Below are positions 3,307 to 9,464 of a DNA stretch of 38,422 bases, in pieces (positions within the stretch are counted from its first letter, which is position 1; each line of letters begins with the position of its first letter). The DNA lies in the NCBI GenBank assembly GCA_018240695.1, contig JAFEFH010000016.1, forward strand, positions 1 to 38,422, read 5' to 3'. Below the pieces are notes generated by a model. It did no database searches and was not told where the DNA came from. It was given only the letters and a program-made list of their open reading frames with translations. This DNA is from Pseudomonadota bacterium. Lineage in GTDB: Bacteria; Pseudomonadota; Alphaproteobacteria; Reyranellales; Reyranellaceae. The translations under genes and the position numbers were made by a program.

Positions 3307-3702
3307 ATGCCGGTGCACTGGACGATCTCGCATCCGACGCAGCTCGTGGTCGCGGTGACCAAAGGCGATGTCTCGGTTTCCGATATCGAGAAGTACTTCG
3401 CGGGCGTCACCGCCGACGGCGCCATGGGGTACGCCAAGATATTCGAGATCACGCACACGCCCCACGCGCTCAGCGACGAGAACCTGAAGACGCTGGGCCA
3501 GCGCGTGCTGTTCTACGCCCAGCACGGCCAGGTCGGCCCCGTTGCGATCGTCGCGGCGTCCGAGGACAGCTTCGACAAGGCCTCGACCTTCGCCGCCGCG
3601 GCGCAAGCGAACCGGCCGATCAGGATTTTCCGCGAGCTGCACATCGCACGACAGTGGATCGATGGACAGCGCACAGGCTCTGCCGCCCCGACACCATCGT
3701 GA
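3307..3702 (+). CDS. STAS/SpoIIAA-like small protein, paralogue 3
   Basis: A 131-residue protein beginning MPVHWTISHPTQLVVAV, very close in plan to paralogue 5 (MPVTWTISTADRLVSAR). It carries the shared features: an acidic first helix (VSVSDIEKYFAG), the GYAKIFEI block, a central strand (PVAIVAAS) and the ending RPIRIFRELHIARQWID. The C-terminal dozen residues are low-complexity and likely disordered. It follows the 71-residue winged-helix-like gene by 10 bp. Probably cytosolic; function unknown. Confidence 0.78.
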   Translation: MPVHWTISHPTQLVVAVTKGDVSVSDIEKYFAGVTADGAMGYAKIFEITHTPHALSDENLKTLGQRVLFYAQHGQVGPVAIVAASEDSFDKASTFAAAAQANRPIRIFRELHIARQWIDGQRTGSAAPTPS

Positions 3703-3834
3703 AGTGACCGGTCGCCGCCGCGATCGAGAAGGTCGTGGCGGTGCCGGGCATTGCCGCCGGTAGATGTGCGCGGCGGTGCCTTGCCGGCCTCCGCCGTCGG
3801 CCCGCATACTTCGGAACGCTTCCCGCGCGGTCCC

Positions 3835-4215
3835 ATGCCGATACGACTGACGATCTTCCATCCCGACCGAATGATCATCGGTGTCGCCACCGAACAGGTG
3901 ACGTTGTTCGATCTCGTCGGCTTCTTTCGCGAGATCGCGGAGTCCGGCACGCTCCACTATCGCAAGCTGATCGACGTCGCCGCCGCCGAGCCTGCCTTGT
4001 CGATGGAGGAGCTTGCCGCCTTCGGCGAGCGGGTACGGGCGGCCCGCACCGACCGGCCGCGCGGCGCGCTGGCCATCGTCGCCGATTCAAATCGCGGTGA
4101 GTTCGCGCGCTTCTTCACCCAGCTGCGAAGCGGGACGGAGGCGCCGCCGACCAAGGTTTTTCGCAGCATTCATGAGGCCCGACGCTGGTTGGCCGCCCAG
4201 CCGCTCGACCTCTGA
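3835..4215 (+). CDS. STAS/SpoIIAA-like small protein, paralogue 4
   Basis: A 126-residue member of the same family (MPIRLTIFHPDRMIIGV), with the HYRKLIDVA block, central strand (ALAIVADS) and the ending TKVFRSIHEARRWLAAQ. The open frame extends upstream to a GTG at 3751, but the ATG at 3835 aligns with the MPxxxTI start of paralogues 2, 3 and 5, so I use it. The ribosome binding site is weak. A 132-bp gap separates it from paralogue 3, and 96 bp separate it from paralogue 5. Confidence 0.75.
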   Translation: MPIRLTIFHPDRMIIGVATEQVTLFDLVGFFREIAESGTLHYRKLIDVAAAEPALSMEELAAFGERVRAARTDRPRGALAIVADSNRGEFARFFTQLRSGTEAPPTKVFRSIHEARRWLAAQPLDL

Positions 4216-4311
4216 CAGACGCGACTTACCGCGTTCCGACTGAAGTTTACCGGCAAGCTTTATCGACGGTTGAACTTGAGAGGCAGCCGCAATGCCCTTA
4301 AGACGACAATA

Positions 4312-4698
4312 ATGCCCGTGACCTGGACCATCTCTACCGCCGACCGCCTGGTAAGTGCCCGCGCCGAAGGCATCGTCACCCTGACAGACATCGAGGCCCT
4401 GCTCGACGACATCGTGGTCAAGGACGCGCTCACTTATCGCAAGATGTTCGATGGCCGCGGCGCTATCGGCCAGTACGACGACGCCGATGTCATGTCCCTG
4501 GGCGCCCGCATCCAGGCCTACAATACGCTGGACCTGAGCGGTGCTGCCGCCATCGTGGTCGACACGCAGGAGCGCTACGACGTGGCATTGCGCTTCGCCA
4601 ACATCGCCAAGGCCAAGCGACCGATCCGCGTCTTCTGGGATCCGCAGTCCGCCCGCACCTGGCTCGACAGCAACCCGACGCTGGAAGATTCGGTCTAG
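4312..4698 (+). CDS. STAS/SpoIIAA-like small protein, paralogue 5
   Basis: A 128-residue protein starting MPVTWTISTADRLVSAR, with the shared acidic helix (VTLTDIEALLDD), the TYRKMFDGRGA block, a central strand (AAAIVVDT) and the ending RPIRVFWDPQSARTWLD. The ATG was chosen over an in-frame start 42 bp upstream because it matches the start of the paralogues. Only 20 bp separate its stop from the MFS exporter gene, so the two are likely co-transcribed. That makes it the only copy with a clear link to another function. Role unknown. Confidence 0.78.
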   Translation: MPVTWTISTADRLVSARAEGIVTLTDIEALLDDIVVKDALTYRKMFDGRGAIGQYDDADVMSLGARIQAYNTLDLSGAAAIVVDTQERYDVALRFANIAKAKRPIRVFWDPQSARTWLDSNPTLEDSV

Positions 4699-7429: not shown

Positions 7430-9148
7430 ATGACTCCTGTTACGTTCAACGACACCCTGGGATGGCTCCACGCGCCGCGCGGCGGCGTCGGCCGCGTCGC
7501 GGTGCTGATCTGCCCCGGCATGATGCAGGACGCGCTGCTCTCGCATTGCTCGCTGCGCGTGCTGGGCGAGCGCCTTGCCGAGGCAGGCTATTGGGCTTTG
7601 CGCTTCGACTATCCCGGTACCGCGGACTCGCTCGCCGAGGGCGACATCGAGCCGCCCGAGGGCCACTGGCAGTCCTGGCTGAAGAGCATCGAGGGTGCGG
7701 CCGACTGGCTGCGCGAGACGACGGGCGCCAGCGAACTGGTGTTCGCAGGCCTGCGCATTGGCGCCACCCTCGCCACCCTGGCCGCGAGCCGGCGCCACGA
7801 CGTCGCGGGAGTCATCCAGTTCGCGCCGGTGGTGCGCGGCAACTCCTACGTCCGTCAGCTCCTCGTCCAGGCGCAGCTCCAGACAGGGCAGCCGCTGCCG
7901 GCCGACGCCGACCTGGTGTTCTACGAATTTCGCCTGAGCCCTCGCACCCTCGACGAGATGCGCGCCGTCGACCTCCGTATCGCCGGACTTCCGGGCAAGA
8001 AGATCGCGCTCTATCCGCGCGCCGACTCGCGCCTGATCGACGAATGTACGCAGGCTTGGACGGCCGCCGGCGCCAACGTGACACGCGGCACGTGGAACAA
8101 GCTCGAGCCGATGTTGCGTCACAACATCATCGAGGAAGACACGCTGGCCGATTTCAGCGACGTCGTCGCCTGGCTGTCGAGAGCCATGCCCTACGACGCC
8201 ACGCACAAGGCGGTGACTCCCGCCGCAACGCCCTTGTCGCTCGAGCCGGCCGCTTGCGTGGAAACGCCAATGCGTTTCGGCCGGCGCGGCCGGCTGTTCG
8301 GCGTGCTGTGCCGGCCGGCGCAAGGCCAGCCCGATACGGCCGTCATCATCACGAACTCCGGGCGCGATCCTCACTACGGTTCGTGCCGCCAGTCGGTGAC
8401 GTTCGCACGCCAGCTTGCGCGCCAGGGCATCGCCTCGCTGCGCATGGATTTCGCGGGCCTCGGTGACAGCCTGGGTCCGATCGGCAAGGAAGACTTGCTG
8501 ACGCCGATGTTCGAGGCCGACCGCGTGCCCGACATTCGAGGAGCACTCGACGCGCTGGAGCGGCTGGGCTATCGCCGCTTCGCGCTCCAGGGCCTGTGTG
8601 CCGGCGCCTATCACTCGTTGCAGGGTGGCCTGAACGATCCGCGCGTGTCGACCTTGCTGCTGGTCAATATCCCGCTGTTCTCGCTGCCCGGCGAGGTGAT
8701 GGAGTTCCTCACTCACCGTACCAATTCGTTCGTCCACTATTTCAATCGGCTCACCAGCCTCGACGGCTTGAAGCGGCTGTTCACCGGCAAGGTGAACGTG
8801 CTGCGCATCCTGCGCGGCCAGGTCGACCAGGTGCGGATGCACGCATCGGAAACGGTGCAGGGCATCGCGACCAAGGTGGGCGGCGCCGACCGGCGGACGC
8901 CGGCCCGGCGCGCCATGGCCGATCTGTCGGCCCGCGGCGTGCGCACGCTCTTCCTGTTCTCCGCCGGCCAGGGAGAGATCGACGCCTTCGCGCGCGAGTT
9001 CGGTCCGGCGGGCGAGGGGCTCGCCGGCTATCCCGGCGCGGTCATGCATGTGATCGAGAACATGGACCACGACATGAGCCAGGCGCCCGGCCGCGCCGTC
9101 GGCCAGGCCCTGATGGTCAACTTCATGGCCCCCTCCGGCCGTTCCTGA
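7430..9148 (+). CDS. Tandem alpha/beta hydrolase with altered nucleophiles
   Basis: A 572-residue protein made of two alpha/beta-hydrolase domains (about 1-255 and 280-570). In the first, the nucleophile elbow reads GLRIG (107-111), with Arg109 where the catalytic Ser should be, so that half is probably not a hydrolase. In the second, the elbow is GLCAG (388-392), putting Cys390 in the nucleophile position; a likely acid is Asp518 and the likely His is His547 in MDHDMS. Cys nucleophiles with a GxCxG elbow occur in polyhydroxyalkanoate synthases and some acyltransferases. The overall fold resembles the exosortase-associated hydrolases. An acyl carrier protein gene follows by 61 bp, suggesting action on carrier-bound acyl groups. 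That role is inference. The ATG overlaps the stop of a short upstream frame. Confidence 0.8.
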   Translation: MTPVTFNDTLGWLHAPRGGVGRVAVLICPGMMQDALLSHCSLRVLGERLAEAGYWALRFDYPGTADSLAEGDIEPPEGHWQSWLKSIEGAADWLRETTGASELVFAGLRIGATLATLAASRRHDVAGVIQFAPVVRGNSYVRQLLVQAQLQTGQPLPADADLVFYEFRLSPRTLDEMRAVDLRIAGLPGKKIALYPRADSRLIDECTQAWTAAGANVTRGTWNKLEPMLRHNIIEEDTLADFSDVVAWLSRAMPYDATHKAVTPAATPLSLEPAACVETPMRFGRRGRLFGVLCRPAQGQPDTAVIITNSGRDPHYGSCRQSVTFARQLARQGIASLRMDFAGLGDSLGPIGKEDLLTPMFEADRVPDIRGALDALERLGYRRFALQGLCAGAYHSLQGGLNDPRVSTLLLVNIPLFSLPGEVMEFLTHRTNSFVHYFNRLTSLDGLKRLFTGKVNVLRILRGQVDQVRMHASETVQGIATKVGGADRRTPARRAMADLSARGVRTLFLFSAGQGEIDAFAREFGPAGEGLAGYPGAVMHVIENMDHDMSQAPGRAVGQALMVNFMAPSGRS

Positions 9149-9209
9149 CCGCCCGCGCCCGAGCCGGTTATCTGCTATCATTCCGGCCGCCGCTCCTGGA
9201 GACCCTTTC

Positions 9210-9464
9210 ATGTCCATTCGTTCCGCCGTCCTCGACCAGGTGAAGCTGGTGGCCGAGCAGCAGCGCAAGACGCTGGCGCCGCTCACCGACGACCTGCCGC
9301 TGGTCGGCTCGGGCCTCGACTCACTGTGCATCGCGCTCGTCGTGGCCAATCTGGAGGACGAGCTGGGCGTCGATCCCTTCGGCGTGATGGGCAGCGTCGA
9401 TATGCCGGTGACCCTGGGCGAGTTCATCCACTTCTACGAGTCCGCCCCCGCCGCCAAGGCCTAG
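9210..9464 (+). CDS. Stand-alone acyl carrier protein
   Basis: An 84-residue protein of typical carrier-protein length. The phosphopantetheine attachment motif is GSGLDSLCIA, with Ser38 the modified residue, followed by the acidic recognition helix (VVANLEDELGVD). The start has a good ribosome binding site (TGGAGA). It differs from housekeeping AcpP and has no ketosynthase, adenylation or acyltransferase gene beside it, only the double alpha/beta hydrolase upstream. A dedicated carrier for that enzyme is the simplest reading. The cargo is unknown. Confidence 0.88.
   Translation: MSIRSAVLDQVKLVAEQQRKTLAPLTDDLPLVGSGLDSLCIALVVANLEDELGVDPFGVMGSVDMPVTLGEFIHFYESAPAAKA

Follow-up and report, generated by a model that had tools for sequence, protein, structure and literature searches.

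A fused double alpha/beta hydrolase with Arg and Cys at its nucleophile elbows, conserved beside carrier proteins and possibly involved in surface-polysaccharide decoration

What might a single protein do that carries two alpha/beta-hydrolase domains, one with an Arg and the other with a Cys where a GxSxG motif would be expected, and that is encoded directly upstream of a carrier protein? The question is raised by a locus within the 38,422-nucleotide stretch of DNA analyzed here (the window), which belongs to a 4.7-Mb Reyranella-like genome whose nearest relatives are alphaproteobacterial metagenome-assembled genomes deposited as "Enhydrobacter aerosaccus" and Rhodospirillales. Statements made at the genome level are taken from searches of the genome. 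Open reading frames, codons, and the elbows of a structural model all agree with a preliminary description that reported Arg109 in GLRIG, Cys390 in GLCAG, and a carrier protein downstream (Table 1), with 61 bp separating the two reading frames. In the profile search, the Pfam PP-binding score of the carrier protein lies below the gathering cut-off of 20.8 bits; the protein nevertheless has the D-S-L surroundings of an attachment Ser, in GLDSL, and this Ser is retained in all of the aligned homologs of its type, termed CP_a.

Table 1. Positions of the double-hydrolase gene, its domains and key codons, its carrier protein, and related genes at other loci
Feature	Location	Strand	Remarks
Double alpha/beta-hydrolase gene	7430-9148	+	ATG start, 572 aa; Hydrolase_4/S33 and hydr2_PEP/hydr1_PEP profile matches
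N-terminal domain, aa 1-262, predicted hydr2_PEP-like pseudo-hydrolase	7430-8215	+	TIGR03101 match over aa 16-145
Arg109 codon CGC, nucleophile elbow of domain 1, motif GLRIG	7754-7756	+	
C-terminal domain, aa 274-572, predicted hydr1_PEP-like Cys hydrolase	8249-9145	+	TIGR03100 match over aa 288-555
Cys390 codon TGT, predicted nucleophile of domain 2, motif GLCAG	8597-8599	+	Cys in 44/44 homologs
His547 codon CAC, predicted catalytic His of domain 2	9068-9070	+	His in 43/43
Carrier protein, CP_a type, 84 aa, ATG start	9210-9464	+	PP-binding 18.8 bits, E 0.002
Ser38 codon, predicted phosphopantetheine attachment site in GLDSL	9321-9323	+	Kept in 6/6 close CP_a homologs aligned
DUF1839 gene of the C155 operon	L003:4470-5447	-	CcbD/AziU3/CtaG-like fold
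Flippase-double hydrolase fusion, 1103 aa	L170:957-4268	-	Arg position is Gly
Flippase-double hydrolase fusion, 1103 aa	L171:14888-18199	+	Arg position is Gly
Flippase-double hydrolase fusion, 1103 aa	L191:8408-11719	+	Arg position is Gly

The AlphaFold model of the double hydrolase (pLDDT 87.7, pTM 0.88) places both unusual residues at nucleophile elbows, Arg109 exactly between strand 102-108 and helix 110-120 and Cys390 exactly between strand 383-389 and helix 391-402. Domain 1 is matched by S33 lipases and feruloyl esterases at Z scores of 22 to 25, and the best fold match of domain 2 is dienelactone hydrolase 2o2g (Z 22.4). As both halves match known alpha/beta hydrolases, a novel fold is ruled out. 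The dienelactone hydrolase family that best matches the C-terminal half also consists of Cys-type alpha/beta hydrolases; unlike the double hydrolase, its members are small-molecule lactone hydrolases that have no link to a carrier protein.

Comparison with fused homologs shows that the two substitutions are shared well beyond this copy, with a conservation greatly in excess of chance. The position of Cys390 is Cys in 44/44 sequences, at identities down to 24%, and that of His547 is His in 43/43, with an invariant Asp546 just before it, while at position 109 the 44 sequences have 38 Arg, 5 Gly, 1 Ala, and no Ser. Because Cys and His are invariant, Arg predominates, and Ser occurs at neither elbow among the 44 homologs, Arg109 and Cys390 cannot be put down to decay of two Ser hydrolases, the outcome that the preliminary description had named as a refutation. 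Domain 1 lacks a conserved catalytic His across the fused homologs. Between the window copy and a 71%-identical relative, dN/dS is approximately 0.31 for the first half and 0.32 for the second, and values of about 0.3 in both halves indicate that both are under purifying selection. Taken with the conservation pattern, this selection makes domain 1 best seen as a conserved pseudo-enzyme, very probably non-catalytic, and domain 2 as a predicted Cys enzyme, much as had been suggested from the window alone. Position 514, the usual place of the third triad residue, is Asp or Glu in 35/43 homologs; the window copy and the relative nearest to it have Gln there, so that a Cys-His dyad may operate in the window copy.

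The same two domains, in the same order, with the same Arg and Cys elbows, an adjacent carrier, and a polysaccharide context, are found in the exosortase-A-associated hydrolase 2 and hydrolase 1. Domain 1 has the Arg that hydr2_PEP carries at its nucleophile position, and domain 2 has the corresponding Cys of hydr1_PEP. The protein studied here differs from that pair in being one fused chain, in its profile scores, and in its genome. Over the whole protein, it reaches 73.2 bits against TIGR03101 (hydr2_PEP; curated cut-off, 202.75) and 98.8 bits against TIGR03100 (hydr1_PEP; 73.1 bits in the genome search; curated cut-off, 168.45), and a profile search of the window genome, which is 94% complete, gave no match to the exosortase XrtA (TIGR03109). 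With no XrtA and both hydrolase scores below their cut-offs, membership of the exosortase A system is ruled out for this genome. Across the genomes searched, XrtA scores above its cut-off in 19/33, and all 19 have the unfused pair and none the fusion. In exosortase A genomes, the unfused pair has an AMP-forming ligase and a carrier protein as its neighbors (L133, L134, and L136); such a ligase is usual for that pair, whereas an aminoacyl-tRNA-synthetase-like ligase is usual for the fused copies.

Among unfused relatives, the hydrolase 1 Cys is present in every copy read that has a curated-level hydr1 match, and the hydrolase 2 Arg is present in nearly all members compared. On the alignments, the Arg and the Cys are family traits of the hydrolase 2/hydrolase 1 pair. 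The search for other fused copies and their neighbors that had been called for found such copies, but it also corrected the picture of an isolated oddity, since the window protein is an exosortase-free fused form of a widespread pair. Unfused Arg and Cys hydrolase pairs were also seen beside a third kind of neighbor, 2000-aa adenylation-type megaenzymes (L129:8792-16709 and L131:2-10302).

A link to amino acids comes from a second fused copy in the window genome, 48% identical to the first and located on contig C155 (match span, C155:27835-29547; called open reading frame, L003 7836-9542). An internal stop in this paralog is ruled out, as the TGA in the match span is the gene's own end and the reading frame is open. 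Beside it, on the opposite strand, are genes for a carrier protein, an acyl-CoA-dehydrogenase-like (ACAD) protein, an amino acid:[carrier protein] ligase, a DUF1839 protein, and a GH2-like protein; an acyltransferase-3 protein, a GDSL-like protein, a glycosyltransferase, and an oxidoreductase are encoded downstream. The ligase scores 462.9 bits against NF005479 (cut-off, 357) and is related to the solved Bll0957 (E 7.6e-93), which was solved with its carrier, and the C155 carrier matches a solved aminoacyl carrier protein (E 5e-21). Loading of amino acids onto carriers by this ligase family has been shown by others for Bll0957, a homolog of the C155 ligase, and the role of the attached amino acid was described as unknown in a 2022 review (PMC9437257). 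The C155 paralog resembles the Bll0957/Atu2573-type systems (NF005479) in adjoining such a ligase, a carrier, and an ACAD protein. Known work on those systems concerns the ligase and the carrier, and the window copy differs from them in having a different carrier type and no adjacent ligase.

Two further proteins of this operon have distinctive residues of their own. In the ACAD-like protein (L003:6339-7496, minus strand) and its homologs, Asn363-Asp364 is invariant near the place usually occupied by the catalytic Glu of many acyl-CoA dehydrogenases, and the protein may not be an ordinary desaturase. The GH2-like protein has two invariant Glu residues at motifs that, on a reading of the pattern, resemble its catalytic pair.

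The association between the fusion and the ligase is widespread. Gene-by-gene clustering recovers the ligase-operon gene set in about 20 of 38 loci, some of which are duplicate records of one assembly. On annotated public plasmids of Azospirillum lipoferum 4B and A. brasilense, the genes for the carrier protein, ACAD, ligase, DUF1839, GH2, and double hydrolase follow one another without a break and on a single strand; this six-gene set is also present in Rhizobium sp. NLR16a, and the neighborhood is common to Reyranella-type genomes, Hyphomicrobiaceae, Azospirillum, and Rhizobium. Within the order, the ligase is present in 27/28 genomes with the fusion compared with 2/48 without it (Fisher P = 4e-17, shared ancestry ignored), and in a sample of 398 genomes from the phylum it is present in 9/10 other fused genomes compared with 18/387 (Fisher P = 7e-11, shared ancestry likewise ignored). 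The association spans several families. Some ligase operons have no double hydrolase within the stretch read.

The DUF1839 protein provides a candidate for the chemistry of this operon. Its model (pLDDT 89.2) matches CcbD over 288 residues (Z 20.1), followed by AziU3 and CtaG, well above the unrelated entries near Z 8, and all 23 sequences compared share Cys34 and His128. CcbD takes proline from its carrier through a Cys thioester and attaches it to an amino sugar (PMC12945683). The likeness to the CcbD/LmbD lincosamide synthetase lies in a match to nearly the full length of CcbD and in the conserved Cys34 and His128, and the difference lies in sequence identity, which is about 12%; the model suggests that DUF1839 is a carrier-protein-dependent amide-forming transferase. 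The family was earlier put in a papain-like class with a guessed role in cell-wall glycans (PMC10318531). In three loci (L190, L174, and L188, from Cupriavidus metallidurans and two genomes of family f67), the ligase operon encodes a DUF1839 whose catalytic Cys is replaced by Arg or Gln, and a second, Cys-bearing DUF1839 lies nearby in L190 and L174 and on another contig (L128) for the L188 genome. Judged by sequence, these Cys-less and Cys-bearing copies are another pair of predicted dead and live proteins in the same system.

Polysaccharide genes recur around the double hydrolase. In L170, L171, and Rhizobium sp. NLR16a, the double hydrolase is itself fused to a polysaccharide flippase (Polysacc_synt_3), and genes for flippase, acyltransferase-3, OpgC, MBOAT, and GDSL proteins are near other copies. 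On a visual reading of the gene calls, the double hydrolase of Cupriavidus metallidurans and that of Burkholderia arboris lie among apparent exopolysaccharide genes.

At the window locus, no ligase (NF005479), ACAD, SDR, or polysaccharide gene is found, and the neighbors are transport and catabolic genes. The earlier remark that no synthase is nearby and that the acyl source is open is accurate for this locus but not for the family, as the C155 paralog and relatives have an amino acid:[carrier protein] ligase next to the double hydrolase, and an AMP-dependent ligase and a reductase take this place in another lineage. The window carrier is of the CP_a type, a second type that differs from the C155 operon carrier, and consequently an amino-acid reading is direct for the C155 paralog and by analogy for the window copy. 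CP_a is present in a single copy in the window genome and, in relatives, adjoins the double hydrolase or its AMP-ligase/SDR partners. The linkage to a carrier protein, on which the original proposal had been made to depend, is conserved in relatives, with the fusion and carrier protein kept together in related assemblies at about 72% and 76% identity.

CP_a is accompanied by a 465-aa AMP-ligase and an SDR reductase in L011, L012, L052, and L053, and this trio lies near the amino acid:[carrier protein] ligase in L182, L183, and L184, such that the two sets may be one pathway. In a tree, the window copy groups with its 71%-identical relative and, with moderate support, with the copies of L052 and L053, inside a clade that otherwise consists of ligase-operon copies. 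A loader hidden elsewhere in the window genome was considered and rejected, as a genome search with the AMP-ligase gave no good relative, the best being 28% identical. Between the amino acid:[carrier protein] ligase and CP_a, L182 and L183 have a Ser-type (GDSAG) alpha/beta hydrolase (L182:9970-10947, plus strand; L183:8214-9179, minus strand), at the point where the window lineage has the double hydrolase.

Enzymes with an alpha/beta-hydrolase fold and a Cys nucleophile are exemplified by SyrC and CmaE, and both the alignment and the AlphaFold model give domain 2 a Cys at the nucleophile position of this fold. SyrC and CmaE move aminoacyl groups between carrier proteins (PMC8748450). They differ from the double hydrolase in being single-domain proteins of antibiotic and phytotoxin assembly lines, and the likeness drawn here is one of fold and Cys. 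Our preferred reading, to which we give a little less than an even chance, is that the double hydrolase could be a carrier-dependent acyltransferase (an aminoacyltransferase in the case of the paralog), in which a Cys enzyme is fused to a dead partner and acts in the decoration of surface polysaccharides; what it catalyzes, with which acyl group, and on which acceptor is inferred. A ligase would load an acid onto the phosphopantetheine arm of the small carrier protein, and Cys390, with His547, would take over the acyl group as an enzyme thioester. Surface-polysaccharide assembly would then provide the acceptor to which the acyl group is passed, probably a lipid-linked glycan or a building-block sugar at the membrane's inner face. 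The Arg domain would perform no chemistry; its probable task would be to hold the acceptor, the carrier protein, or the pantetheine arm of the latter. For the C155 operon, amide formation, drawing on the same carrier, would be due to the CcbD-like DUF1839, and a second transfer or shuttle step to the double hydrolase, whereas the window copy would be a paralog working with its own, different carrier, a loader for which is neither adjacent nor found in the genome.

A wider proposal can be entertained more tentatively. The carrier protein, ACAD-like flavoprotein, aminoacyl-tRNA-synthetase-like ligase, CcbD-like DUF1839, GH2-like protein, and Arg/Cys double hydrolase could together form an undescribed amino-acid decoration system for Gram-negative surface glycans, in which carrier docking would fall to the Arg domain and transfer to the Cys domain, ahead of outward flipping of the glycan. 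The window locus would then be a side branch of two genes, one of them for a separate carrier. Such a system would be comparable in logic to Dlt D-alanylation or to the lincosamide synthetase.

Counting against a transferase is that the operon already has one likely transferase in DUF1839, so that a second is not obviously needed. The absence of ligase, ACAD, and polysaccharide genes at the window locus, the Gln at the triad acid position of the window copy, and the ligase operons in which no double hydrolase was seen weigh in the same direction. The productive candidate DUF1839 lends weight to the main rival, an editing, type II-like thioesterase in which Cys390 would hydrolyze wrong or stalled acyl groups off the carrier and the Arg domain would serve for docking only. 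One such gene per carrier-protein operon, next to the carrier and the ligase, fits proofreading, and the top fold matches are mostly hydrolases. Type II enzymes, however, normally have Ser in GxSxG, a position that is Cys in all 44 fused homologs, and in carrier-protein work a Cys nucleophile is typical of transfer, not hydrolysis, as in SyrC and CmaE. The flippase fusions also suggest a place in a productive pathway, and we consider editing unlikely.

For the window copy, a role without amino acids is conceivable, and we hold it to be a real, if doubtful, possibility. The partners of the protein would be CP_a, the SDR reductase, and the 465-aa AMP-ligase, and its substrate a reduced fatty or other carboxylic acyl group, with a general acyl-CoA/ACP ligase supplying CP_a in this genome. 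This would agree with the presence of CP_a beside the AMP-ligase and SDR genes in the L011, L012, L052, L053, and L182 to L184 loci and with the tree, in which the closest relatives outside the 71%-identical group have that context; it agrees less well with the position of the CP_a set beside the ligase operon in L182 to L184, perhaps as one pathway, and with the low identity of the best AMP-ligase relative in the window genome. It could also be speculated that the window copy is a relic that lost its loader genes and is drifting toward inactivity, since neither ligase nor SDR is beside it and Gln holds its triad acid position. That the fusion and carrier protein have stayed together in related assemblies, that dN/dS is low in both halves, and that Cys, His, and Arg are intact makes this very improbable. 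Of the readings considered, that of a transferase is the most economical.

The component families are each already named. On the function of hydr1/hydr2 or DUF1839, no paper was found in the searchable literature beyond the fold classification (PMC10318531), and these hydrolases go unmentioned in the 2006 PEP-CTERM paper. Nor did we find, in searchable papers, any account of the fused protein, of the rule that pairs Arg with Cys, of the operon as such, of the likeness of the DUF1839 fold to CcbD, or of the connection with amino acid:[carrier protein] ligases. The conserved operon, with its CcbD-like amide synthase candidate, Cys/Arg double hydrolase, and recurrent polysaccharide genes, offers a testable proposal for the role of amino-acid carrier proteins. 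The ligases are thereby connected with the exosortase-A hydrolases, a pair that has long had no more than a name in annotations, and a seemingly dead enzyme domain is seen to be kept, often fused, beside a live one.

Elsewhere in the window, there are several small open reading frames of similar size (362-760, 895-1275, 3307-3702, 3871-4215, and 4312-4698). Three of these (within 3307-4698) cluster as one family that is tandemly repeated in related loci, and the frame at 895-1275 has a borderline SpoIIAA-like match.
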